A stretch of 64,000 bases of DNA, taken from positions 1-64,000 of the forward strand of contig JAGWWF010000002.1 in the NCBI GenBank assembly GCA_018970445.1, written 5' to 3'. A program made the translations under genes and the position numbers. Each line of letters begins with the position of its first letter. Within the stretch, counting starts at the first letter, position 1. This stretch comes from Alphaproteobacteria bacterium. Its GTDB lineage: Bacteria > Pseudomonadota > Alphaproteobacteria > Sphingomonadales > Sphingomonadaceae. Below are positions 3,225 to 18,607 of the stretch, piece by piece. Under the pieces are notes generated by a model that made no database searches, was not told the DNA's origin, and saw only the letters and a list, made by a program, of their open reading frames with translations.

Positions 3225-6200
3225 TCAACGACGAATCGGGCCGTCGGGGCCATAGAGCGGGAAGGGCGGGCGTTTCGGCGTGGGCGGCGGGGCCTTGGCC
3301 AGGGCGTCCATGGCCAGCGCCACCGCCGTTTCCAGCTGCGGATCGCCGCCGGCCATCACCTTGTCCGGATCCTGGTCCACCTCCACGTCGGGCGGCACGC
3401 CGATATTTTCCACCGCCCATTCACCGGCGGGCGAGAAGAAGCCCACCGACGGGCTGGTGAGCTGGCCGCCGTCCATCAGCGGCGGGATGCCGCCGATGCC
3501 AACCAGCCCGCCCCAGGTGCGCTTGCCCACCAGCGGCCCCAGTTTGAAATCCCGGAACATCCAGGGCAGCATGTCGCCGCCGCTGGCCGATCCTTCGTTG
3601 ATCAGCATCACCTTGGGCCCCAGCACGGCGGCGGCGGGCGTGCGGTCGATCCGGCCATAACGCGGCTGCCACCAGCTGATCAGGCGGCGGTTCATCACCT
3701 CGATCATGTAATCCGCCGCCTGGCCGCCGCCGTTGAAGCGATCATCGATCACCATGCCCTGCCGGTCGCTCTGCGCGAAATAATAGCGGTTGAAGCTGGT
3801 GAAGCCGCCGCCGCCGGTGTTGGGCAGATAGACATAGCCGAGCTTGCCGCCCGACAACTGGTCCACCCGGCGGCGGTTGTCCTCGATCCAGCTGAGGTTG
3901 CGCAGGCGCGCTTCGTTGGCGATGGGCACCACCGTCACTTCCCGCGCCGGCTGGTCGGCCCGGGCGATGGACAGGGTGACGGCGGTATCGGCGGCGCCTT
4001 CCAGATGGCGCTGGATATCCTCGTCACCGCTCACCGCCGTGCCGTTGATGGCGGTGATGCAATCGCCAGCCTTCACATCCAGGCCGGGGCGGGCGAGCGG
4101 GGCCTTGATGTCGGGTGTCCAGCTGCCGCCATCGTGGATGCGAGCCAGGCACCAGCGGCCATCGCGGATGGTGTAATCGGCGCCCAGCAGGCCGCCGGGC
4201 ACACGTTTTGCCGCCGGGATGGCGCCGCCGCCGCCGCGCAGATGGCCGATGGAAAAGCCGGTGAGCGCTTCGTGAAACAGATAGTTGAGATCGCCGCGCG
4301 ACTGGATGCCGGGCAGGAAGGCGGCCAGGGCCTTTTCGGCCGCGGCAACATCATAACCGTGAAAATCGGGATCATAGAAATAGGCGCGCTGCACCCGCCA
4401 GATCTCGCGATACATCTGCGCCCATTCGGCGGCCGGATCGATGCGGGCCATCAGGCCATCGGTTTTCAGCCGCACATCGGGATCGGATGGCTTGATTGGC
4501 TTGGTGGCATCGGCGACCAGCCAGCCGGCATTGGCCCCCGACGTGCGCACCAGCAGCTTGCTGCCATCGGCCGACAGGGTGAAGCCCTGCGCCTTGTCGA
4601 ACAGCGTCTCGCTCTTCTTGCTCTCCAGCGTCCAGCGCAGCAGCGACGCGCCGGGCGGTTCGTCGGCATCGACATCCAGCGGTTCGTTGGCGCGCAGCAG
4701 CCACAGCACGCCGCCCTTGCCGGCTTCAAGGTTGCGATAATCGGCGGCGGGCAGCGGCAGCGCCACCATGCGGCGGGCGATCTGATCGGGGCTGAGGCTG
4801 GCCAGATCGATCTTGATGGCAGGCGTGGCCGGGGCGGCGGCGGGCCTGGCCGGTTTCCTGGCGTCGGCCTTTTCGGGCGCAGCCGGCGCCGAAGCGATCT
4901 GGGTCGGGGCCTTTTCATCGCCCAGTTCCGGGGCCAGCGGCGATGGCGTGCCGGCGGCCAGCGCGATGGCATAGACGCTGCGTGTCGGTTGATAGACATC
5001 GCTTGACATATCAAGCGGGTAGATGGTGCCGCCAGCATTGTTGCTGGCCAGGAAATACAGATATCTGCCATCGCGATCAAAGGCCGGATCGCTGGCCATG
5101 GCCATGGCATCGCTGATCTGGGTGGTCTTGGCCGTAGCCACTTCGTGCAGCATCAGCACCGGGAAATGATTGCCGCTGACGCGGGCATAGACGAACCAGG
5201 CCGAATCCGGCGACCAGGCCATGCCACTGGACGGCTGGGCAAAGCCGCCAAATTCATCCGGCGGGCCGGCGGCGACCAGCCTGCCCGTTGCCAGATCCAG
5301 GATCCACGTGTTCAGCCGATTGTCCTGAAAGGCGATGCGCTTGCCATCGGGCGACCATTTGGGGTTGAAATAATAGGCCGGCTCCGGGGCCAGCTTATAG
5401 GTTTTTACCGGCTTGCCGGCCCCCATCTGGCTGGCGACATGCAGGGCATACAGCCCGCCCGCATCGCTGAAATAGGCCACCGACTGGCCATCGGGGCTCC
5501 AGACCGGGGTGCGTTCCATGGTGCCGGGGGTGGCGGTGATGCTGCGGGTGATGCCCTCCTTGACGGGCAGGGTCATGATCTCGCCATGGGCCTCCACCGC
5601 GACGCGCAAGCCGGTGGGCGAAAGGGCGGCGGCGCGCACCTCGCTGCCCACGCTGGCGACGCGGGGGCGGATATCGGGCATGTCGCCATCCAGATCGATG
5701 CTGATCGCCTTGGGCTCCTCGCCCGGCACCAGCGTGTGGATCGTGCCCAGCCGGTCGAACACCAGGGCCTTGCCATCGGTGGCCAGGCTGCGGATGTCGG
5801 GCCCGCGGTTCTGCCAGACCAACGCCGTCTGGCCGGAGGCGGGATCAAAGCGATACACGCTTACCGGCCCCTTGCGGCCAGACAGGAAATAGACCTGGCC
5901 GCCCAGCCAGACCGGCGAGAAATCCGCGCCGCCAGCCTGCGGCACCTTGCGGGTTTTCAGCCCATCAAGGCTGGTGATCCACACCGCGCCGGTGAGCCCG
6001 CCACGATAATTGCCCCAGGCCGTGTAGCGGGTGTGATTGAAGGAAAAGCCGGGTTCGAGCGGGTTGTAGGCGATGGACTTGCCATCGGGGGAGAAGGCGC
6101 CGGCCGCCGCCATCGGCAACGGCAGCGCACTGGCCGCGCCGCCGCCGGCATTCACCCGCCACAGCCGGGTATAACGGCTGGCCGAATCGCGGTTGGAGCG

Positions 6201-9727: not shown

Positions 9728-11490
9728 CAGATCGCCCCCTGCGATGCAGCCTTCACCGCCGCCACCACGGCCTGGGCATCCACCCGCGGCAATGTCACCA
9801 GCCGGGCGCCCATGGCAGCGGCCAGTTCGGCCCCCTGCGGCCGTGGCCGGGGTGAGCAATCGATGAACACGGCAGCAATGCCCGATGCCCGATAGGCCCG
9901 TGCGCTGGCCAGCGCCGCCTCCTGCGGGCTGATGCCATCGCCGCCGCCGACATTGGCCCGACCATCGGTCAAGACCACCACCAGCGGACTGCGGCCGCGG
10001 CCCTTCTCGCCCTCTGCCACCCGGCGCGCCAGATCAAGGCCAGAGGCAATCGGCGTACCACCCCCGCCAGCCAGGCCGGCCAGTTCCCGTTTGGCCCGCG
10101 GCAGGCTGCGCGTGGGCGGCAGCGCCAGCACCGCCTCCAGCCCGCGGAAGGCCACCAGCGCCACTTCGGCCCGCTTGACATAGGCTTCGGCGAGCAAAAG
10201 CTCCACCGCGCCCTTGGCTTCGGCCAGCCGGGCGAAGGCCGCCGATCCGCTGGCATCGACGGCAAAGATGGTGGTGGATTGTGTCTGCGCGATGAAGCGG
10301 CGGATGCGCAGATCCTCCACGCGGATGGCCAGCCGGCCATCGTCGCGTACCGGGCGGATCCTTTGCCACGGTGCCGCCGTCTTGATGGTTTCGATCAAGG
10401 CCAGACGCGCGCCGCGGCCCGGCATCCCCGGCCGCACGCCGGCCGGCCGACCGCTGGTGATGCTCTTCTGCTTGGCACCGGATGATCCGCTGGCCTTGGG
10501 GGCCTTGCTGATGGTGCTGGCGGCCAACGCATCCAACAGGCCGGGCGGCAAGGCAGTTTGCGCGGCATCCAGAATCATGTCGGTCGGGTCGATGGGCGGT
10601 GGCTCCGGCTGCTCCTGGTCATCGCCCGTCGTGTCATCCGATGGCGGGGGCGGTGGCGGCTCCTCGGCTGGGGGCTCTTCGGGTGGCTGCTCCTCGGGTG
10701 GGGGCGGCGCTTCCTCATCCGGTGGTGGCGGCGGCAGGCGTGTGGCGCGCGGGCCCAGCACCAGTGCGCCGGCGGCGGCCATGTCGGCCTCACGCAGCTG
10801 CTCGATATCGTCCGGTCGTTCGTCGGCCCTGGCATGGGCGCGCGCCACGCGCACGGCCATGATGGGGGCGCGGATGGACGCGATGCCCAGGGCAGCGGCA
10901 CCGACGGCAAGCGCGGTTTCGGGATCGCTGGCGATGGCACCGGGTTCGGCCAGCATCGCGAGTGGCGGCGGCGGGGCCTCCCCCGCCACCAGCGCTGCCA
11001 TGTCCAGCCGCACGCTGTTCAGATCGATGTGAATGGCCAGCCGATCGGCCAGGCCCTGCGGCACACGTTCCCGGTCCGGATTATCGGGATCGCCTTCGTC
11101 AAACAACAGCAACGGTGGGCAGCCTTCATCAATGGCGGTGGCCAGCCGGGCGGCGAGCGCAACGTTCAGCCGCTCGGCCATCGGCACCACCAATATCTTG
11201 CCGGCGGCATCGGCCAGGATGCCGGCACGGTGCACCGGCTTGCCGCTGGCCAGCGTCGCCGTCAGGTCCAGCCCGCCATCCAGCGCCTCGGAATCGGCAT
11301 TGGCCGGCAACCGGCGGGTGGGCACCACCATGGCCAGCGCATCGGCCCAGGCATCCCGCACCGGGCCGGGCCGGGCACGCAGCAGGATGCCGCCAATCGC
11401 GTTGCCGGCTGCCACCAGGATGTCGATGGCCGAAAGCGCCAGCGCCCAGCGTTCGCCCGACGCTTCGTCTGCCGCCCCGTCAGGGGTCAT
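9727..11490 (-). CDS. bchD: magnesium chelatase subunit D
   Basis: The 587-residue protein has a degenerate AAA+ N-terminal half without a proper Walker A, a long Pro/Glu-rich acidic linker (about residues 250-300, runs of 'PPPPP', 'EEAPPPPEEQPPEE'), and a C-terminal von Willebrand A domain with the metal-binding MIDAS DASGS at residues 412-416 and 'TDGRANVGGG'. BchD scaffolds the BchI ATPase ring and presents it to BchH so that Mg2+ is inserted into protoporphyrin IX, the first step unique to chlorophyll synthesis. Its start overlaps the end of bchI by four bases (ATGA). The acidic linker is typical for the family. Confidence 0.96.
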   Translation of the reverse strand: MTPDGAADEASGERWALALSAIDILVAAGNAIGGILLRARPGPVRDAWADALAMVVPTRRLPANADSEALDGGLDLTATLASGKPVHRAGILADAAGKILVVPMAERLNVALAARLATAIDEGCPPLLLFDEGDPDNPDRERVPQGLADRLAIHIDLNSVRLDMAALVAGEAPPPPLAMLAEPGAIASDPETALAVGAAALGIASIRAPIMAVRVARAHARADERPDDIEQLREADMAAAGALVLGPRATRLPPPPPDEEAPPPPEEQPPEEPPAEEPPPPPPSDDTTGDDQEQPEPPPIDPTDMILDAAQTALPPGLLDALAASTISKAPKASGSSGAKQKSITSGRPAGVRPGMPGRGARLALIETIKTAAPWQRIRPVRDDGRLAIRVEDLRIRRFIAQTQSTTIFAVDASGSAAFARLAEAKGAVELLLAEAYVKRAEVALVAFRGLEAVLALPPTRSLPRAKRELAGLAGGGGTPIASGLDLARRVAEGEKGRGRSPLVVVLTDGRANVGGGDGISPQEAALASARAYRASGIAAVFIDCSPRPRPQGAELAAAMGARLVTLPRVDAQAVVAAVKAASQGAI

Positions 11491-12512
11491 GCCGGGATCA
11501 GCTCCGCAATGGCGCGGGCGATGCGGCTGGTCGAACCGGTGTCGTCCAGCACGTTGCGGCGCAGGCGGTGGCGCAGCGCCATCGTGGCCACCTCGGCGAC
11601 ATGGTGCGGCTTCACATCCTTCTTGCCGGCCAACGCCGCCTGGGCGCGGGCGGCGCGCAGCAGGGTCAGCTCACCGCGCAGGCCATCGGCCCCAACGGCG
11701 GAACAGAGCTGTGCGCCCAGCAGCAGCATCTCGTCGACCACCTGCACCTTTGGCAGCAGTTTGCGTGCCTTGGCGATGGCTTCCAGCGTCGCCTGTTCAC
11801 TGCCCTGGAATTCGGCCACGAACGCCGCCGGGTCGCGATCAAACCGGTCACAGCGCTTCACGATCTCGATGCGGTCGCCCATGTCGGTCGGCGTGCGGAC
11901 ATCGACGGACAGGCCAAAGCGGTCGAGCAGCTGCGGGCGCAGCTCGCCCTCTTCCGGGTTGCCGCTGCCCACCAGGATGAAGCGCGCCGGATGGCGGATG
12001 GACAGGCCCTCGCGCTCCACGACATTGGTCCCCGACACCGCCACATCAAGCAGCAGATCGACAAGATGATCTTCGAGCAGGTTGATCTCGTCGATATAGA
12101 GAAAGCCGCGATTGGCCTTGGCCAGCAGACCGGGTTCAAAGCGCTTTTCGCCGGTGGCGAGCGCACGTTCCAGATCGAGGCTGCCGACAACCCGGTCTTC
12201 GGTCGCCCCCAGCGGCAGATCCACAAACGGAACGCTGGCCTCTTCGCTGCGCTTTCCGGCCCTGTCGCGGCAGCCTTCGATGCATGGATTGCGATCATCG
12301 GGGGCGCAGAAATAGCGGCAGCCCGGCACCACCTTCATCGGCGGCAGCAGGCCGGCCAGTGCCCGCACGGCGGTGGACTTGCCGGTGCCACGATCACCAA
12401 ACACCATCACGCCGCCCAGCCGTGGTTCGACCGCGGCCAGCAGCAACGCCTGCTTCATTTCGGCCTGGCCAACGATGGCGGTGAATGGAAAGGGAATGCG
12501 AGCGCTTGCCAT
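11487..12512 (-). CDS. bchI: magnesium chelatase ATPase subunit I
   Basis: The 341-residue AAA+ ATPase carries Walker A GDRGTGKST (39-47), Walker B 'FLYIDEINLL' (137-146) and the cysteine-containing insertion 'CRYFCAPDD'. BchI hexamers hydrolyse ATP to drive Mg2+ insertion by BchH with BchD in the cytoplasm. I chose the ATG at 12512, giving MASARIPFPF, which matches the family N-terminus ('YPFTAIVGQ'); 16 codons upstream in frame look unrelated. First gene of the bchIDO operon, separated from the upstream TonB receptor gene by a strong terminator. No PpsR box was found in the short gap before it. Confidence 0.96.
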   Translation of the reverse strand: MASARIPFPFTAIVGQAEMKQALLLAAVEPRLGGVMVFGDRGTGKSTAVRALAGLLPPMKVVPGCRYFCAPDDRNPCIEGCRDRAGKRSEEASVPFVDLPLGATEDRVVGSLDLERALATGEKRFEPGLLAKANRGFLYIDEINLLEDHLVDLLLDVAVSGTNVVEREGLSIRHPARFILVGSGNPEEGELRPQLLDRFGLSVDVRTPTDMGDRIEIVKRCDRFDRDPAAFVAEFQGSEQATLEAIAKARKLLPKVQVVDEMLLLGAQLCSAVGADGLRGELTLLRAARAQAALAGKKDVKPHHVAEVATMALRHRLRRNVLDDTGSTSRIARAIAELIPA

Positions 12513-12606: not shown

Positions 12607-14931
12607 TCAATAGTCCTTGCGCAGCGTCAGGAAGAACTGGCGCGGCGCGGCCGGCAGCAGCGTCTGGTTGTCACCGCTGAAGCCAAAGCCATTGGAACCG
12701 ATGGTGGCGACATAGCGGCGATCGAACAGGTTGCTGGCTGTCGCTTCGATGGCCAGACCGTTCAGCCAGCGGTTATCACTGGTGACGCGATAGCCGATCT
12801 TGCCATCCACCACCACGCGGCCGCCGACTTCGCGATCGTTCGAGAAGGTGAAGAAGCGGCCAGTCATGGCGTTGGCGTTGGCGCGGCCGTAGAAGGCGCC
12901 ATCATCATAGGCCAGTTCCAGGTTGGCGATGCTGCGCGGGCTGTCAACCACGGTACGGCCGCGGATGGCCTGCACCACCGTGCCGGCAGCGTTGCGCACG
13001 TCATCGCGATAGGTGTTTTCATTGTAGGCATAGGAGGCGGTGACGGTGAAGGCTTTCACCGGCTGCCACTGCACACCGATTTCTGCGCCCAGCGAGCGAA
13101 CATCGCCAACGTTTGACAGCAGGGAGGCGTTGCCGACGATGCCCGGCCCTTGCGGGATGGACAGCAGCCGGTTGGAGAAGTTGACCAGATAGGCCGCGAC
13201 CACACCGCTCAGCTTGCCTTCACCAAAGCGGAAGCCGGCTTCGAAGGTGTTGGTCTTTTCCGGGCGCAACTGGCTGGCGATCACTGCAAAGCCGGCAGCA
13301 GACGTGGCGAACGGGCCCGTGGTGGCAGCGGCGGTGAAGGCGCGCTGATTCTCGGTGAAGTTGGCGAACAGTTCGTTGCCGGCACCCAGTTTGTAGAGCA
13401 GGCCGACCTGCGGCATGAACAGGTCTTCCGACTTGATGCGGCCCAGGGCCAGCGGGCCCGGCACCGGGTTGATGGCCGCCGCACGCAGCTTCACGCTCTG
13501 GCCCTTGAACCCGACGCTCACCGAAAAATCGTCGTTGATATCCCACTGATCCTGCACGGCATATTGGAAGGTGCGGGTGTTGTAATCGTTGTTCCACTGG
13601 GTGAAGAAGGGATTGGACTGATAGGCCAGCGCGTTGTTCAACGGCACGGTCTGGCTGGTGCCCATGTCGTAGAAACGACGGGCCTGTTCGAAATCATTGT
13701 TCTCGTACCAGACGTTCAGACGCAGCGTGTTGGAACCCAGCGTGGCGGTGAGATCGCCCAACAGGCCCAAACGGCTGATTTCATATTCGGTGGTGCGGAA
13801 GCTGATCGGCAGACCGCCGGGGCTGGCGCGATAGGGCGTGATCCACGAACCCTGGCCCTTGTTGCTGTGATAATAGGTCTGGAGGCCGGCGGTGACCTGA
13901 TCCGACAACTTGCCTTCCAGACGGCCACCGGCCAGCCAGTCGCGACGCAGGCCGGCGGCATCGAAATAGGCATCGTCCACGCTGGTGTAGGGTGCCGGGA
14001 AGCTGGTGCCGAACGTGTTCGCGCCCACCGCGACGCCGGTGTTGCTGCGGTTGGCGCCGATGAAGGCCAGCCGCACGGCCAGCGGCCAGTTGTCGGAAAT
14101 ATTGTCGGCAAAATAGCCCAGGCGGTTCAGCATTTCCTGGCTGAAATCCTGATAGTCGCTTTCCTTGCGGTCGGTGAAGTTGACAAAGGCAGTGAAGGTC
14201 ACATCCTCGGCAAGATCGGCCACCGCCTTGGCGTTGACCTGCGTGGCGCGCTGGGTGCCCACGCCCTTCCACTTGTCGGCCGTCAGGTGAGCGGCGCTGA
14301 TATAGGCCTTGAAGCCGCCCAGATCGCCGGTGTCGAGCGTGCCGAACAGCCGCAGCGTGTTGTTGTCGCCATAAGTGACGTTGCCGGCAACGCCCAATTC
14401 CTCTTCGGGCGCGCGGCTGAAGAATTCGATGGTGCCGCCCAGGTTGGAGCTGGAAGCGGTGCCCAGCGCGCCAGCGCCCTGGCTGACGCGGGTGCGGCCA
14501 ATGTTGTCGGCAATCACTGCGCGGCTGATGTGCAGGCCGTTGGTGTTGCCATAGCTCATGTCACCCAGCGGCACGCCATCCAGCGTGAAGCCGAGCTGGT
14601 TCTGGTTGAAGCCGCGCAGCGTGATGCGGGTGGACCATTCATAGACGCCGAACGGATCGGCCGACTGGAAGTTGACGCCCGGCAGCTTCTGGATCGCAAT
14701 GAACGGGCTGGCACCCGGCACGGTCAGCTTGATGTCGTCAGCCTTGATCTCGGTGACCTGGCGGACTTCGCCTTTGCCATAGACGACGATTTCGGCTTCT
14801 TCAGTGGCGGCGTCGGCTGCAGCAGCGTCAACAGCGGCATCGGCCGGGGCGGCAGCGTCGGCACGGGCAAAGGCCGGCGCGGCCAAGAGGGTACTGGCGA
14901 GCAGGGCAAGACGAAGAACGGACGTTTGCAT
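12607..14931 (-). CDS. TonB-dependent outer-membrane receptor
   Basis: The 774-residue protein starts with a signal peptide (MQTSVLRLALLASTLLAAPAFA), an Ala/Asp-rich stretch, and a TonB-box-like 'EIVVYG'. The plug domain follows ('ASPFIAIQKLPGV', 'ITLRGFNQNQLGFTLDGVP', 'GTASSSNLGGTIEFFS'), then a 22-strand-type beta-barrel ending in 'FFLTLRKDY', with terminal aromatic residue as required for outer-membrane insertion. Such receptors take up siderophores, cobalamin, carbohydrates or other large substrates; the ligand is not predictable here. It is unusual inside a photosynthesis cluster, between bchI and an sbtAB pair, and lies 125 bases downstream of sbtB on the same strand. Its ATG has an AGGAG site. 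Cobalamin or iron are plausible cargos given the pathway, but this is speculation. Confidence 0.93.
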   Translation of the reverse strand: MQTSVLRLALLASTLLAAPAFARADAAAPADAAVDAAAADAATEEAEIVVYGKGEVRQVTEIKADDIKLTVPGASPFIAIQKLPGVNFQSADPFGVYEWSTRITLRGFNQNQLGFTLDGVPLGDMSYGNTNGLHISRAVIADNIGRTRVSQGAGALGTASSSNLGGTIEFFSRAPEEELGVAGNVTYGDNNTLRLFGTLDTGDLGGFKAYISAAHLTADKWKGVGTQRATQVNAKAVADLAEDVTFTAFVNFTDRKESDYQDFSQEMLNRLGYFADNISDNWPLAVRLAFIGANRSNTGVAVGANTFGTSFPAPYTSVDDAYFDAAGLRRDWLAGGRLEGKLSDQVTAGLQTYYHSNKGQGSWITPYRASPGGLPISFRTTEYEISRLGLLGDLTATLGSNTLRLNVWYENNDFEQARRFYDMGTSQTVPLNNALAYQSNPFFTQWNNDYNTRTFQYAVQDQWDINDDFSVSVGFKGQSVKLRAAAINPVPGPLALGRIKSEDLFMPQVGLLYKLGAGNELFANFTENQRAFTAAATTGPFATSAAGFAVIASQLRPEKTNTFEAGFRFGEGKLSGVVAAYLVNFSNRLLSIPQGPGIVGNASLLSNVGDVRSLGAEIGVQWQPVKAFTVTASYAYNENTYRDDVRNAAGTVVQAIRGRTVVDSPRSIANLELAYDDGAFYGRANANAMTGRFFTFSNDREVGGRVVVDGKIGYRVTSDNRWLNGLAIEATASNLFDRRYVATIGSNGFGFSGDNQTLLPAAPRQFFLTLRKDY

Positions 14932-15056: not shown

Positions 15057-15371
15057 TCAATCGAACTTGGCGTTGCGCACGACCTCCACATCGCTCGACA
15101 TCAACAACATGTGATGGCTTTCCAGCAGCGGTGCCAGCCGGTCGATGAAGGCGGCGGCATGATCGGGACCGGTGATGGCGAGGAACATCACCTTGGCCGT
15201 GGCGCCGGACAATTGATCATCGCGCCAGCGTCCGTGGGCACCAACCCCGCCCAGGGTAGGCAACAAGGTGTGGTGGGTTATGCCGGCATCGGCCGCGATG
15301 CGCACGATGGCCGAAATCAGCGGCTCGTCGGCCAGCACCTCGATGCGGCGGCGGTGGGTTGTGTTGGTCAT
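15057..15371 (-). CDS. PII-like regulatory protein, SbtB-type partner of the transporter
   Basis: The 104-residue protein has the length and beta-alpha-beta pattern of small PII-like (ferredoxin-fold) regulators: 'RIEVLADEPLISAIVRIAADAGI' then 'HTLLPTLGGVGAHGRW' at the site of the T-loop and 'AKVMFLAITGPDHAAAFIDRLAPLL' in the second half. It lies 11 bases after the sbtA-like gene on the same strand, the arrangement known for SbtA-SbtB, where the trimeric SbtB binds adenyl nucleotides and closes the bicarbonate transporter. Sequence similarity is weak to my eye, so the role is inferred mainly from position, size and fold pattern. Confidence 0.7.
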   Translation of the reverse strand: MTNTTHRRRIEVLADEPLISAIVRIAADAGITHHTLLPTLGGVGAHGRWRDDQLSGATAKVMFLAITGPDHAAAFIDRLAPLLESHHMLLMSSDVEVVRNAKFD

Positions 15372-15382
15372 GGCCTGTGCCC

Positions 15383-16351
15383 CTATCCCCGGATCAGCGG
15401 CCAGACATGCGCCGCCAGCCAGCCATAGTAACCGATCCCGACGGTGAGGTTGAACGGAAATGTCACGGCGAGGCTCATGCCGAGATACAGGCCGGGATCG
15501 GCCGCCGGCAGCGCCAGGCGCATCACCGCCGGCACCGCGATATAGCTGGCAGAACCGGCCAATATGCCCAGGGCCGCCGCCGATCCGGCATCAAGACCAA
15601 GTTCCACGCCCAGCACTACACCCAGCGTGCCGTTCAACAGTGGCAATAGCAGGGCAACAGCGGCGGTGCGGATGGTGAGCGCGCGCCTGTCGAGCAGCCT
15701 GCGCGCCGCGATCAGGCCCATGTCGAGCAGGAAGATGCACAGCATGCCGCGGAACGGCACCTCGAACACCGGCGCGATGGGGGCCATGCCAGCTTTGCCG
15801 GCCACCAGCCCGATCAGGAAACTGCCGAGGAGAAGAATGACCGAACCGTTGAGGAAGGTCTCGTGGAGCAGGCCACCGCGGGGAGCCAGACTGTCCTGGT
15901 TCTGGGCGCGAGCAAGCAACAAGCCGGTGATGATCGCCGGGGTTTCCATCAGCGCCAGCACCGCCACCATGAACCCGGCCGGGGCCATGCCGGCATGGCG
16001 CAGGATTTCCGAACCAGTGGCGAAGGTGACGACACTGACGGAGCCATAGTGCGCCGCCACGGCCGCGGCATTGGTCCGATCCAGCCGGCCAGCGGTGCGC
16101 AGCAGCCAGAAGGCTGGCAGTGGGAGCAGGAAGCTCAAGACGAGGCCGGCGCCGCCTGCCACCAGCATGTCGTGGGTGAATCCGGTTTCGGCCACCTCCC
16201 CGCCGCCGCGCAGGCCGATCGACATCATGAGGTAGAGCGAAATGCCCTTGGCCACGGCCTCTGGGATGGCGAGATCCGAGCGGGCAAAGGCAGCCAGGGC
16301 GCCGAGCAGGAAGAACAGCACCACAGGCTGCAACAGGGCATCAAGGGCCAA
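15383..16351 (-). CDS. sbtA: SbtA-type sodium-dependent bicarbonate transporter
   Basis: The 322-residue, very hydrophobic protein shows about ten membrane helices in two inverted halves. 'AAHYGSVSVVTFATG' in the first half and 'GSASYIAVPAVMRLALP' in the second are the signature segments of SbtA, the Na+/HCO3- symporter of cyanobacteria, which also occurs in some proteobacteria. The start is a TTG at 16351 with GGGAG seven bases before it; no ATG gives a better N-terminus. It is followed immediately by a PII-like gene, as for SbtA-SbtB. In an organism without visible carbon-fixation genes it could feed carboxylases of anaplerotic metabolism. Lies between hemA and the TonB receptor. Confidence 0.85.
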   Translation of the reverse strand: MALDALLQPVVLFFLLGALAAFARSDLAIPEAVAKGISLYLMMSIGLRGGGEVAETGFTHDMLVAGGAGLVLSFLLPLPAFWLLRTAGRLDRTNAAAVAAHYGSVSVVTFATGSEILRHAGMAPAGFMVAVLALMETPAIITGLLLARAQNQDSLAPRGGLLHETFLNGSVILLLGSFLIGLVAGKAGMAPIAPVFEVPFRGMLCIFLLDMGLIAARRLLDRRALTIRTAAVALLLPLLNGTLGVVLGVELGLDAGSAAALGILAGSASYIAVPAVMRLALPAADPGLYLGMSLAVTFPFNLTVGIGYYGWLAAHVWPLIRG

Positions 16352-16427
16352 GGCGGCACTCCCGCTGGATCAACATGAACGCGCCGTAATCATTTCGGGT
16401 CCGGCCAGCAAGGGGCGGCTTGTCCCA

Positions 16428-16456
16428 CAAAAAAGCCCGGCGGAGTGCCGCCGGGC
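16428..16456 (-). terminator. intrinsic terminator after hemA
   Basis: A perfect 10-bp stem (16433-16442 with 16447-16456; AGCCCGGCGG) has a four-base loop. On the minus strand it is followed by a run of six T (16433-16428). It lies 22 bases downstream of the hemA stop and ends the puhABC-acsF-puhE-hemA transcript before sbtA. Confidence 0.9.
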
Positions 16457-16478
16457 TGATTTGCGAACGATGGCTGGA

Positions 16479-17702
16479 TCAGGCGGCAGCCTCAACGCGA
16501 TGGAGCGCACACTGGCTCCAGATGTCGGACAAGGCCTTGATTAACCGGTCGATGTCGTCATCGCTGTGCACCGGGCCGGGAGTGATGCGCAGGCGTTCAG
16601 TGCCGACCGGAACGGTGGGATAGTTGATCGGCTGCACATAGATGCCGTGATGTTCCATCAGCCAGTCGCTGATCATCTTGGCCTTCTTGGCATCGCCCAC
16701 CATGACGGGAATGATGTGGCTGGGATTGTCCAGCTGCGGAATGCCGGTGGCGCGCAGCGCGGCGCGCACCCTGGCGACTCGCTCCTGCTGGCGCTTGCGC
16801 TCGAACGGGCTGGCCTTGAGGTGCTTGACCGAGGCCAGGGCACCGGCAGCAACGGCCGGCGGCAGCGCGGTGGAAAAGATGAAGCCCGAAGCAAAGCTGC
16901 GCACGAAATCGCACAGCGCCTTGGAACCGGCGATATAACCACCAACAACGCCATAGGCCTTGGCGAGTGTGCCTTCGATCACGGTCAGCCGGTTCATCAG
17001 GCCTTCCCGTTCGGCAACCCCGCCGCCGCGTGGGCCATACATGCCAACGGCATGGACTTCATCGATATAGGTCATCGCGCCGTGCTTGTCGGCAACGTCG
17101 CAGATCTCCTTGATGGGGGCGATGTCGCCATCCATCGAATAGACGCTCTCGAACGCAACCAGCTTCGGCACTTCAGGGCCATATTGGCCGAGCAGCCGAT
17201 CAAGATCGTCTGCGTCATTGTGCTTGAACACGTGGCACTTGGCGCGGCTGTGGCGAATGCCTTCGATCATCGATGCATGGTTGAGGGCATCGGAGAAGAC
17301 CACGCAGCCAGGAATCTTGCTGGCGAGCGTCGACAGTGCGGCCCAGTTGGAGACGTAGCCCGACGTGAAGAGCAGCGCATCTTCCTTGTCGTGCAGATCC
17401 GCCAGCTCCAGTTCAAGCTGGCGATGCACGTGCATGGTGCCGGAGATGTTGCGGGTTCCGCCAGATCCGGCACCGGACTTGTCCAGCTCTTCATGCATGG
17501 CTGCCAGCACATCGGGGTGCTGGCCCATGCCGAGATAATCATTGGAGCACCACACGGTCACATCCTGGGTGCTGCCATCAGGCAGGTAGCAGGTGGCATG
17601 AGGATAGTCACCCCGCCGCCGCTGCAACTCGGCAAACACGCGGTAATTGCCGCGTTCTTTCAAGCCGTCCAACGCCGCCTGGAAATGTGCTTCAAAGTCC
17701 AT
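16479..17702 (-). CDS. hemA: 5-aminolevulinate synthase
   Basis: This 407-residue pyridoxal-phosphate enzyme condenses glycine and succinyl-CoA to 5-aminolevulinate, the committed precursor of haem and bacteriochlorophyll in alphaproteobacteria. Recognisable parts are the N-terminal '[10 protein letters not shown]', the glycine-rich '[14 protein letters not shown]', the cofactor Asp in '[13 protein letters not shown]' and the Schiff-base Lys248 in 'GTLAKAYG'. Length is standard. It lies 20 bases after puhE and ends the puh-acsF operon; a perfect PpsR-type box (17761-17778) inside the puhE 3' end suggests an additional, oxygen- or light-controlled promoter of its own. GGGAG precedes the ATG. 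Confidence 0.97.
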
Positions 17703-17722: not shown

Positions 17723-18607
17723 TCATTGCACGGCGTTTTGTCGCACCGCAAGTGGATTCGTGTCACCCTGGCCTGACACATGGGTTGTATTGGCAGCAGG
17801 CGTAAGGCTGGAGTCAGCCGCCGCATGGCCAGTGGCTGATGGCGCAGATTGACGGAGATTTTCTGGCATGGCCCAACGAAACATGGCCGTATCCTGCCAG
17901 GGCACCACCAGGAATCCATGTTCCAGAAAGGCCAGGGCCACGAGCGCAAAGGCCAAGGCATAACCAGTCGCAATACCGCCCTGGCTCGACAGGGCCAGAT
18001 CGGCGAGCCACCCCGCCAGAACCGCAATGCCAGAGACCGATGCGACGAAGAACCAGCGCGGAGGGGCGATGCGGAAATAGCTGGCAAGATAACGCATGTG
18101 ATCGGGCATCATCTCGGTCGACAGATGCGGGACACCGGCAAAGATGTTGAACTTGGCCGAGAGACGCATGACGAACAGCAGCAGAAATGTGAGCGTTGCA
18201 GTCTGGTTGGCCTTGCCCCAAGTGGCAGCCGCCAGGGCAATGAGGCAAAGGAACATCGCCACTTCGTGATAGATCAGCGTTGCTGCCGCCAACCGGAATC
18301 GCCGCCAGCCCCGCGCTTCGGGCGGGCAGGGTTGGCGATTGGGGCCGGTGACAAAGCCCATCAGGAACGACAGTTCATGCCATCCCCACAGCACCAGCGC
18401 ACAGGCAAAGGCTACATAGGCGGCCCAAGGGCTGGTTTCCTCGGCGGTGGCGATGATTCCGCCCATGGCCAGGCCAGAGGCCACCGTGGCCATGGTGATG
18501 CTCATCGGCCAGGTGTGGCTGGGCAGCTTGTCCAGCCACAGCACAAAGCCAGTGGCCACAAACCACAGCACTGTGGCAAACAGCAGAGGCAAGGCAAATT
18601 CGCTCAC
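17723..18607 (-). CDS. puhE: PuhE, putative photosynthetic complex assembly protein 2
   Basis: The 294-residue integral membrane protein has about seven to eight hydrophobic helices beginning 'LPLLFATVLWFVATGFVLWL'. Sequence marks such as 'HELSFLMGFVTGP', 'LIYHEVAMFL', 'RLSAKFNIFAGVPHLSTEMMP' and 'HMRYLASYF' are those of the DUF3623 / PuhE family, known from photosynthesis clusters and implicated in amounts of reaction centre and bacteriochlorophyll. It lies 16 bases downstream of acsF and 20 bases before hemA. The last ~40 residues are hydrophilic and poorly conserved, and the DNA encoding them contains the PpsR box of hemA. Confidence 0.93.
   Translation of the reverse strand: MSEFALPLLFATVLWFVATGFVLWLDKLPSHTWPMSITMATVASGLAMGGIIATAEETSPWAAYVAFACALVLWGWHELSFLMGFVTGPNRQPCPPEARGWRRFRLAAATLIYHEVAMFLCLIALAAATWGKANQTATLTFLLLFVMRLSAKFNIFAGVPHLSTEMMPDHMRYLASYFRIAPPRWFFVASVSGIAVLAGWLADLALSSQGGIATGYALAFALVALAFLEHGFLVVPWQDTAMFRWAMPENLRQSAPSATGHAAADSSLTPAANTTHVSGQGDTNPLAVRQNAVQ
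17761..17778 (-). promoter_or_regulatory. PpsR/CrtJ binding box upstream of hemA
   Basis: TGTCACCCTGGCCTGACA is a perfect TGT-N12-ACA, in fact TGTC-N10-GACA, the operator recognised by PpsR/CrtJ repressors. It lies 58 bases before the hemA start, inside the puhE coding end. A ppsR gene is present at 32353. Binding is predicted, not shown. Confidence 0.65.

Follow-up and report, generated by a model that had tools for sequence, protein, structure and literature searches.

SbtA and SbtB have been studied mostly within the cyanobacterial CO2-concentrating mechanism, as in Synechocystis, where adjacent genes encode the carrier SbtA (Slr1512) and its PII-like partner SbtB (Slr1513). Another PII-like protein, CPII of Thiomonas intermedia, has been reported with carboxysome genes. 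According to the titles of its PDB entries (5d4l-5d4p, 5drk and 5ds7), the ligands are ADP, AMP and bicarbonate. In Synechocystis SbtA, the four bicarbonate ligands S114, Y140, S324 and S327 were docked and mutated (PMC8352866). The accessible text of a review mentions SbtA-like proteins in heterotrophs (PMC10117731), and that of a study on Shewanella oneidensis ties the Sbt-like protein SO_3758 to formate tolerance and prefers efflux as the explanation (PMC12093963). For ‘Ca. Phycosocius’, an alphaproteobacterial aerobic anoxygenic phototroph without RubisCO, Sbt has been proposed to serve anaplerotic bicarbonate uptake; in the accessible portion of that paper the genomes have PEP carboxylase, and Sbt is not placed in the photosynthesis cluster (PMC10008586).

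We analysed a 64,000-nucleotide stretch of contig JAGWWF010000002.1 (the window) from a Sphingomonadaceae genome, GCA_018970445.1. A sequence-only reading had placed an SbtA-like and a PII-like gene between hemA and bchI in this stretch, and both open reading frames are indeed found there, separated by 11 bases on the minus strand. The genes at the locus are as follows:

15383-16351, minus strand: sbtA-like gene of the Sbt_1 superfamily, 322 aa, TTG start (Pfam, AlphaFold model, dN/dS)
15057-15371, minus strand: sbtB-like gene of the PII family, 104 aa, ATG start (Pfam, AlphaFold model, dN/dS)
12607-14931, minus strand: TonB-dependent receptor gene between sbtB and bchI (Pfam, NCBIfam, synteny)
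16479-17702, minus strand: hemA, 5-aminolevulinate synthase, upstream of sbtA (TIGR01821)
11487-12512, minus strand: bchI, the downstream photosynthesis neighbour (TIGR02030; start as called)

Besides hemA, the upstream flank carries puhE (TIGR03055) and acsF (TIGR02029) according to NCBIfam, and bchF, two bchN/B-type genes and regulator genes with PAS and B12 domains lie further along the cluster. The 2.3-kb receptor gene that separates sbtB from bchI was missing from the sequence-only reading. We put at roughly two in three the probability that the two genes are a housekeeping pair for bicarbonate uptake and sensing that came to lie, secondarily, at a variable site of the photosynthesis cluster in one lineage.

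The carrier and its PII-like partner

The sbtA-like product, which carries AAHYGSVSVVTF and GSASYIAVPAVMR, matches the Pfam family Sbt_1 (PF05982) with 360.6 bits (E 9e-108; cut-off 27) over positions 1-307 of the 308-position profile, whereas no NCBIfam model matched either this protein or the SbtB-like protein at E <= 0.1. Its AlphaFold model has a mean pLDDT of 89.7. Structural similarity search using Foldseek returned Synechocystis SbtA (PDB 7egl) as the best match, with an E-value of 2.5e-13, a TM-score of 0.87 and 24% identity, and the model shows the 5+5 inverted-repeat fold of SbtA in this comparison; bile-acid symporters came next, at TM-scores of about 0.5-0.66. The protein is a member of the Sbt_1 superfamily with a predicted SbtA-type elevator fold, and bicarbonate is its presumed substrate.

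Compared to Synechocystis SbtA, to which it is about 25% identical, the protein shares the fold, the adjacent PII-like gene and two of the four bicarbonate ligands. Mapping through a phmmer alignment showed that S114 corresponds to S106 and S324 to S269, both still serine, whereas Y140 and S327 are replaced by L132 and A272; the full ligand set of canonical bicarbonate-transporting SbtA is thus not present. All 31 aligned relatives have S106, S267, S269 and A272, with leucine (20) or methionine (11) at position 132, which indicates that the ligand change is a trait of the entire sampled branch.

Taken alone, the SbtB-like protein scored 24.4 bits against the Pfam family P-II (cut-off 25) and 25.7 bits against DUF190 (cut-off 23.4), and within its family, 45 of 46 proteins reach P-II at E <= 0.01. 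Its AlphaFold model (pLDDT 90.7) adopts the PII ferredoxin-like fold. The best fold match is Thiomonas CPII (E 3e-9, TM up to 0.84), with cyanobacterial SbtB ranking behind it (best E 8e-8, TM 0.62-0.73 among the matches listed). A profile search with the partner gave the same order, with E-values of 5e-10 for CPII, 1e-4 for SbtB7001 and 0.02 for Slr1513. The closest solved relative of the partner is CPII rather than a cyanobacterial SbtB. Identity to CPII is only 16-20% in the fold alignments, and by analogy the partner may bind similar ligands; unlike CPII, it goes with a transporter and, in relatives, with a carbonic anhydrase. It also differs from Synechocystis SbtB in belonging to a genome without RubisCO and in its C-terminus, which ends in VVRNAKFD, without the CGPxGC redox loop that a part of the SbtBs conserve. 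The protein contains no cysteine at all, and so has no redox R-loop of the kind seen in those SbtBs.

Both genes are under purifying selection, with dN/dS of 0.05-0.17 for sbtA and 0.10-0.22 for sbtB between the window and six relatives, at rather diverged synonymous sites (pS 0.42-0.59). In 8 of 11 relatives, a TTG, GTG or ATG occupies the position of the sbtA start; in the other three, the extracted matches start within the coding sequence, and a start codon is found 3-7 codons upstream.

Signals between hemA and bchI

Three features bear on how the pair might be transcribed:

16434-16457, minus strand: GC-rich hairpin with a T-run, resembling an intrinsic terminator, between hemA and sbtA (terminator scan, conservation)
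16386-16412, minus strand: promoter-like element of sbtA, CTTG (16412-16409) and TTAC (16389-16386) (conservation)
17761-17778, no strand assigned: nearest PpsR-type motif upstream, TGTCA-N8-TGACA, lying 59 bp ahead of hemA rather than ahead of sbtA

As the terminator scan found four sites in 5.6 kb against 4.0 expected, the weight of the hairpin lies in its position and conservation. It was seen by eye behind hemA in all 12 hemA-downstream sequences, nine with and three without sbtAB, and is followed by a run of at least five T in seven of them. Between the hairpin and sbtA, CTTG and TTAC stand at promoter-like spacing and are invariant in all eight aligned species, and their conservation suggests that they may act as a promoter. 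A generic sigma-70 scan did not pick up this element, and by eye it is absent from G406, the ninth hemA-linked species, which was left out of the promoter alignment.

The motif TGT-N12-ACA, which we take as the PpsR-type motif, occurs 13 times in the window against 5.4 expected, a count reached in 1 of 100 shuffles. Apart from the site upstream of hemA, another lies between bchF and the regulator genes; the motif scan of the window found none between hemA and sbtA. For want of such a site, PpsR control of sbtAB was rejected or at best left open. FnrL control was set aside as well, since the sole match to TTGAT-N4-ATCAA, with one mismatch and at position 3598, is at chance level.

These signals bear directly on the proposal of the sequence-only reading that the pair is a functional part of the cluster, in which light energy drives bicarbonate uptake for anaplerotic carboxylation under joint control with the pigments. 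We consider this proposal improbable. The stretch from sbtB to bchI shows no terminator-like site on the minus strand, and nine of the 12 species in one clade keep the pair behind hemA, both of which would suit a cluster gene; a further genome, G403, has sbtAB ahead of the receptor gene and bchI. Against it stand the hairpin after hemA, the promoter-like element of the pair itself and the lack of a PpsR-type site from hemA to sbtA. To judge from the DNA, co-regulation with the pigments finds no support; light coupling of the pair is possible, with no regulatory sign of it at the locus. Moreover, the three clade species without sbtAB still keep their photosynthesis cluster.

Distribution and genomic neighbours of the pair

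In a sample of 396 Sphingomonadales genomes, with Sbt_1 scored over the Pfam cut-off and puhE taken as the photosynthesis marker, Sbt_1 was found in 92 genomes, puhE in 80 and both in 25; puhE is missing from the other 67 Sbt_1 genomes. Only three of the 25 have sbtA less than 2.5 kb from puhE (2.3-2.4 kb), and all three belong to Sandarakinorhabdus. In the other 22, which count against a functional place in the cluster, the two genes are about 172 kb to 2.3 Mb apart on the same contig (15 genomes) or on different contigs (7). A cluster-located sbtA is thus present in 3 of 80 puhE genomes of the sample, in a single genus, and is not conserved among phototrophs. The excess of Sbt_1 among puhE genomes, which would favour the cluster-gene proposal, is weak and not significant (25/80 vs 67/316, p 0.07), and outside the genus p is 0.22 (21/74 vs 67/315).

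Within Sandarakinorhabdus, 23 of 24 genomes have puhE and 13 have Sbt_1. The pair is cluster-linked in ten of these 13, corresponding to 10 of the 23 puhE genomes. In nine genomes it directly follows hemA, the copy of G406 being split over two contigs, and bchI comes next in eight of the nine; G407 shows no bchI in the stretch examined. In that genome, the expected place of bchI behind the TonB receptor is taken by large ORFs on the opposite strand (L098:8485-13664). In the tenth, G403, the pair precedes the receptor gene and bchI on a contig without hemA, an arrangement that is less secure as this genome is 78% complete with 6% contamination. The remaining three genomes carry the pair outside the cluster, beside lipA (G386, G411) or beside pheT (G400). 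Outside the genus, sbtA lies away from the photosynthesis genes, the outcome that the sequence-only reading had named as refuting it: of the 92 Sbt_1 genomes, 67 have no puhE and only the three of the genus have sbtA within 2.5 kb of it. Inside the genus the location does recur (10 of 13).

A second collection of 37 named loci, gathered with two peptide patterns, is no census, and several of its contigs offer less than 10 kb of flank. Photosynthesis genes occur in the flanks (up to 10 kb) of nine loci, all from the Sandarakinorhabdus group. No photosynthesis query matched in the flanks of the other 28, which include Rhodovulum, Roseibaca and Aerophototrophica, presumably phototrophs.

A neighbour count over 87 loci outside the genus, not including the fragmentary Sbt_1 genomes G014 and G057, revealed a different usual home. 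A PII-like gene adjoins sbtA at 85 of these loci (90 of 92 with five genus loci added) and accompanies it in all 13 genus genomes that have sbtA. A β-carbonic anhydrase gene is adjacent to the pair at 73 of the 87, and 70 show the order sbtA-sbtB-carbonic anhydrase with a divergent lipA in the flank (for example L002, L014 and L027), mostly in genomes without puhE. The spacing is tight: of the 72 loci where both were found, 53 have a carbonic anhydrase match that begins about 10 bases or less from where the sbtB frame ends, and 17 more have it within 100 bases, and the gap between lipA and sbtA is below 200 bases in all except 7 of 72. No carbonic anhydrase was detected with the pair at 13 of the 87 loci; in the second collection, one lies close to sbtA in 11 of 37, for example in Thalassospira. 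The apparent operon with β-carbonic anhydrase beside lipA in most relatives points to bicarbonate supply as the basic job of the pair, and a role in carbon supply is strengthened by these gene arrangements.

In the genome of the window, the carbonic anhydrase gene stands beside lipA (L128) and sbtAB is missing there, which indicates that the carrier-sensor genes and the anhydrase have been separated in this lineage. G133, which has no sbtAB, likewise keeps the anhydrase beside lipA, with one ORF between, and in G411 the order beside lipA is carbonic anhydrase-sbtA-sbtB. The idea that sbtAB replaces a missing carbonic anhydrase was rejected, as β-carbonic anhydrase is present in all 24 genus genomes. 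Elsewhere, an Erythrobacteraceae MAG (L199) has an 80% identical SbtA with a PII-like gene near ORFs that by eye resemble phosphoglycerate kinase and fructose-bisphosphate aldolase.

The neighbours also bear on the substrate. Two of the four tested ligands are replaced throughout the branch, and a SASYIA stretch is common to this carrier and Shewanella SO_3758, being among the residues named in the accessible text of the study in which a variant of that protein gave formate tolerance (PMC12093963). The carrier might accordingly move formate or another short carboxylate, or export bicarbonate, with the PII-like partner as its gate. We regard this as quite improbable, given the anhydrase next to the pair at most loci, a partner most like CPII, which was solved with bicarbonate, and the invariance of the other two ligands. 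The replaced Y140 and S327, the 13 loci without carbonic anhydrase, the formate link in Shewanella and the SbtA tree described below were all counted against a bicarbonate unit.

As for how the pair reached the cluster, the content of the hemA-bchI junction differs by species (some gene names assigned by eye): it holds a TonB receptor (in some species along with an M24 peptidase), a dehydrogenase/hydratase-like group, or small ORFs. In the window as at L100, L102, L104 and L105, the TonB-dependent receptor occupies the junction, which it does in species without sbtAB too. In several relatives it is joined by an M24-peptidase-like gene (one of them scanned). The pair is present in G409 and missing from the closely related G133 and G247; the flanks compared are 97% identical towards hemA and 91-96% towards the receptor gene. 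In a tree of SbtA, which left out G406 and L189 (the second copy of G313), the cluster type groups with L159, a copy from another genus (G280); the node uniting these with the genus copies at the lipA site has a support of 81/88, with long branches flagged by the program. A transposase-like ORF, recognised by eye, lies upstream of the L159 pair and hints at mobility. Identity to the SbtA of the window is 90% in G403 and 85% in G400, compared to 72-73% for their PuhE and 87% for HemA, and this greater likeness of SbtA than of PuhE/HemA suggests a transfer of sbtAB in these two genomes. A simple vertical move from the lipA site into the cluster was not borne out, as L159 of another genus stands beside the cluster type in the tree; on the sequences compared, horizontal acquisition would be as likely as a move from the lipA site.

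Such variable junctions, together with the presence or absence of sbtAB between close relatives, could mean that the pair is neutral cargo in a permissive spot and functionally dispensable, the more so as the genome holds a second candidate bicarbonate system. That the two genes are under purifying selection and are retained as a pair in every genus genome with sbtA makes this very improbable. The second system consists of a SulP-family transporter gene immediately followed by a β-carbonic anhydrase gene (L127:1594-3825; G000:C17).

Possible consumers and the role of the pair

The sequence-only reading saw no RubisCO genes, which held for the entire genome of the window: no large subunit was found. 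Service to RubisCO was rejected for this reason and because G396, the sole member with RubisCO in a search that covered the genus, has no Sbt_1. G396 is itself a candidate photoautotroph: it has puhE, a row of fbp, prk, fba, cbbL, a small-subunit-sized ORF and cbbX (L129, G396:C1:1144000-1156000; L130), and a second RubisCO-like protein nearest to OiaX. Another member, AAP62, was reported without autotrophic pathways (PMC3587927).

The anaplerotic consumers named by the sequence-only reading fared unevenly. Canonical PEP carboxylase is not present in the genome of the window, where the best match to PF00311 reaches 48.6 bits over about a quarter of the profile, compared to about 920 bits for the full-length matches of other genus members. 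A divergent 912-aa PEP-carboxylase-like protein is encoded at L126:2027-4765 (G000:C34), in a clade without strong PEP carboxylase matches; at only 48.6 bits, it would be a doubtful consumer of the bicarbonate. Across the 24 genus genomes, the match is strong in ten, weak and partial in seven and absent in seven, and a strong match is missing from nine of the ten genomes with cluster-linked sbtAB (among these ten, G406 is only 75% complete). The genome note of AAP62, a sister strain, lists a PEP carboxylase (PMC3587927), with which its 44-bit partial match conflicts unless the divergent protein was meant. The pyruvate-carboxylase C-domain is likewise absent from the genome of the window and was found in 3 of 24 genus genomes, including G407; GTP-PEPCK was not found in the genome of the window either. 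Among the six families searched there, the only clear matches were one ATP-PEPCK and three biotin carboxylases. One of the latter is the size of AccC, and the other two carry a fused biotin-carrier domain, like the alpha subunits of acyl-CoA carboxylases. A propionyl-CoA-type carboxylase, also named by that reading, is a possible consumer. That aerobic anoxygenic phototrophs assimilate CO2 anaplerotically is reported in the accessible parts of two papers (PMC10008586, PMC5071866), which would favour the cluster-gene proposal, although the strain of the latter fixed little CO2 in this way; the absence of canonical PEP carboxylase and pyruvate carboxylase from the genome of the window argues against it.

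We favour a housekeeping pair instead. SbtA would import bicarbonate with Na+ through its SbtA-type elevator fold, and the CPII-like partner would dock on it and throttle uptake in response to adenylate charge and to the bicarbonate level inside the cell. The basic job of the pair would be to supply biosynthetic carboxylations, by acetyl-CoA and other acyl-CoA carboxylases, when CO2 is scarce. Carbamoyl phosphate and purine synthesis also draw on bicarbonate. In one Sandarakinorhabdus lineage, sbtAB would have come to lie behind the hairpin of hemA with its own promoter-like element, leaving the carbonic anhydrase alone beside lipA. A bolder extension, which we hold to be unlikely, is that a heterotrophic operon of SbtA-like, CPII-like and β-carbonic anhydrase genes for bicarbonate supply is conserved across Sphingomonadales, that its carrier-sensor half was captured by the photosynthesis cluster in Sandarakinorhabdus, and that the energy status set by light now governs uptake. 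If this were true, adenylate charge and the Na+ gradient would set the bicarbonate available to acyl-CoA carboxylases in CO2-poor, bloom-like water.

The link between Sbt and phototrophy had been thought undescribed. Anaplerotic uptake through Sbt was already proposed for ‘Ca. Phycosocius’ (PMC10008586), where the passage concerned is silent on any location in the cluster. In the open-access literature, represented mostly by titles and the beginnings of abstracts, we found no description of sbtAB inside a photosynthesis cluster or of a Sphingomonadales sbtA-sbtB-carbonic anhydrase operon. The published cluster of AAP62 lists ‘6xORFs’ between puhE and bchIDO (PMC3587927), the interval that holds hemA, sbtA, sbtB and the TonB receptor gene in that genome.

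Altogether, the position within the photosynthesis cluster is a lineage-specific placement and should not by itself be read as a physiological link. Roughly one in four of the Sphingomonadales genomes sampled carries the pair, usually accompanied by β-carbonic anhydrase, and this recurring unit offers a testable system for bicarbonate supply in presumed heterotrophs.
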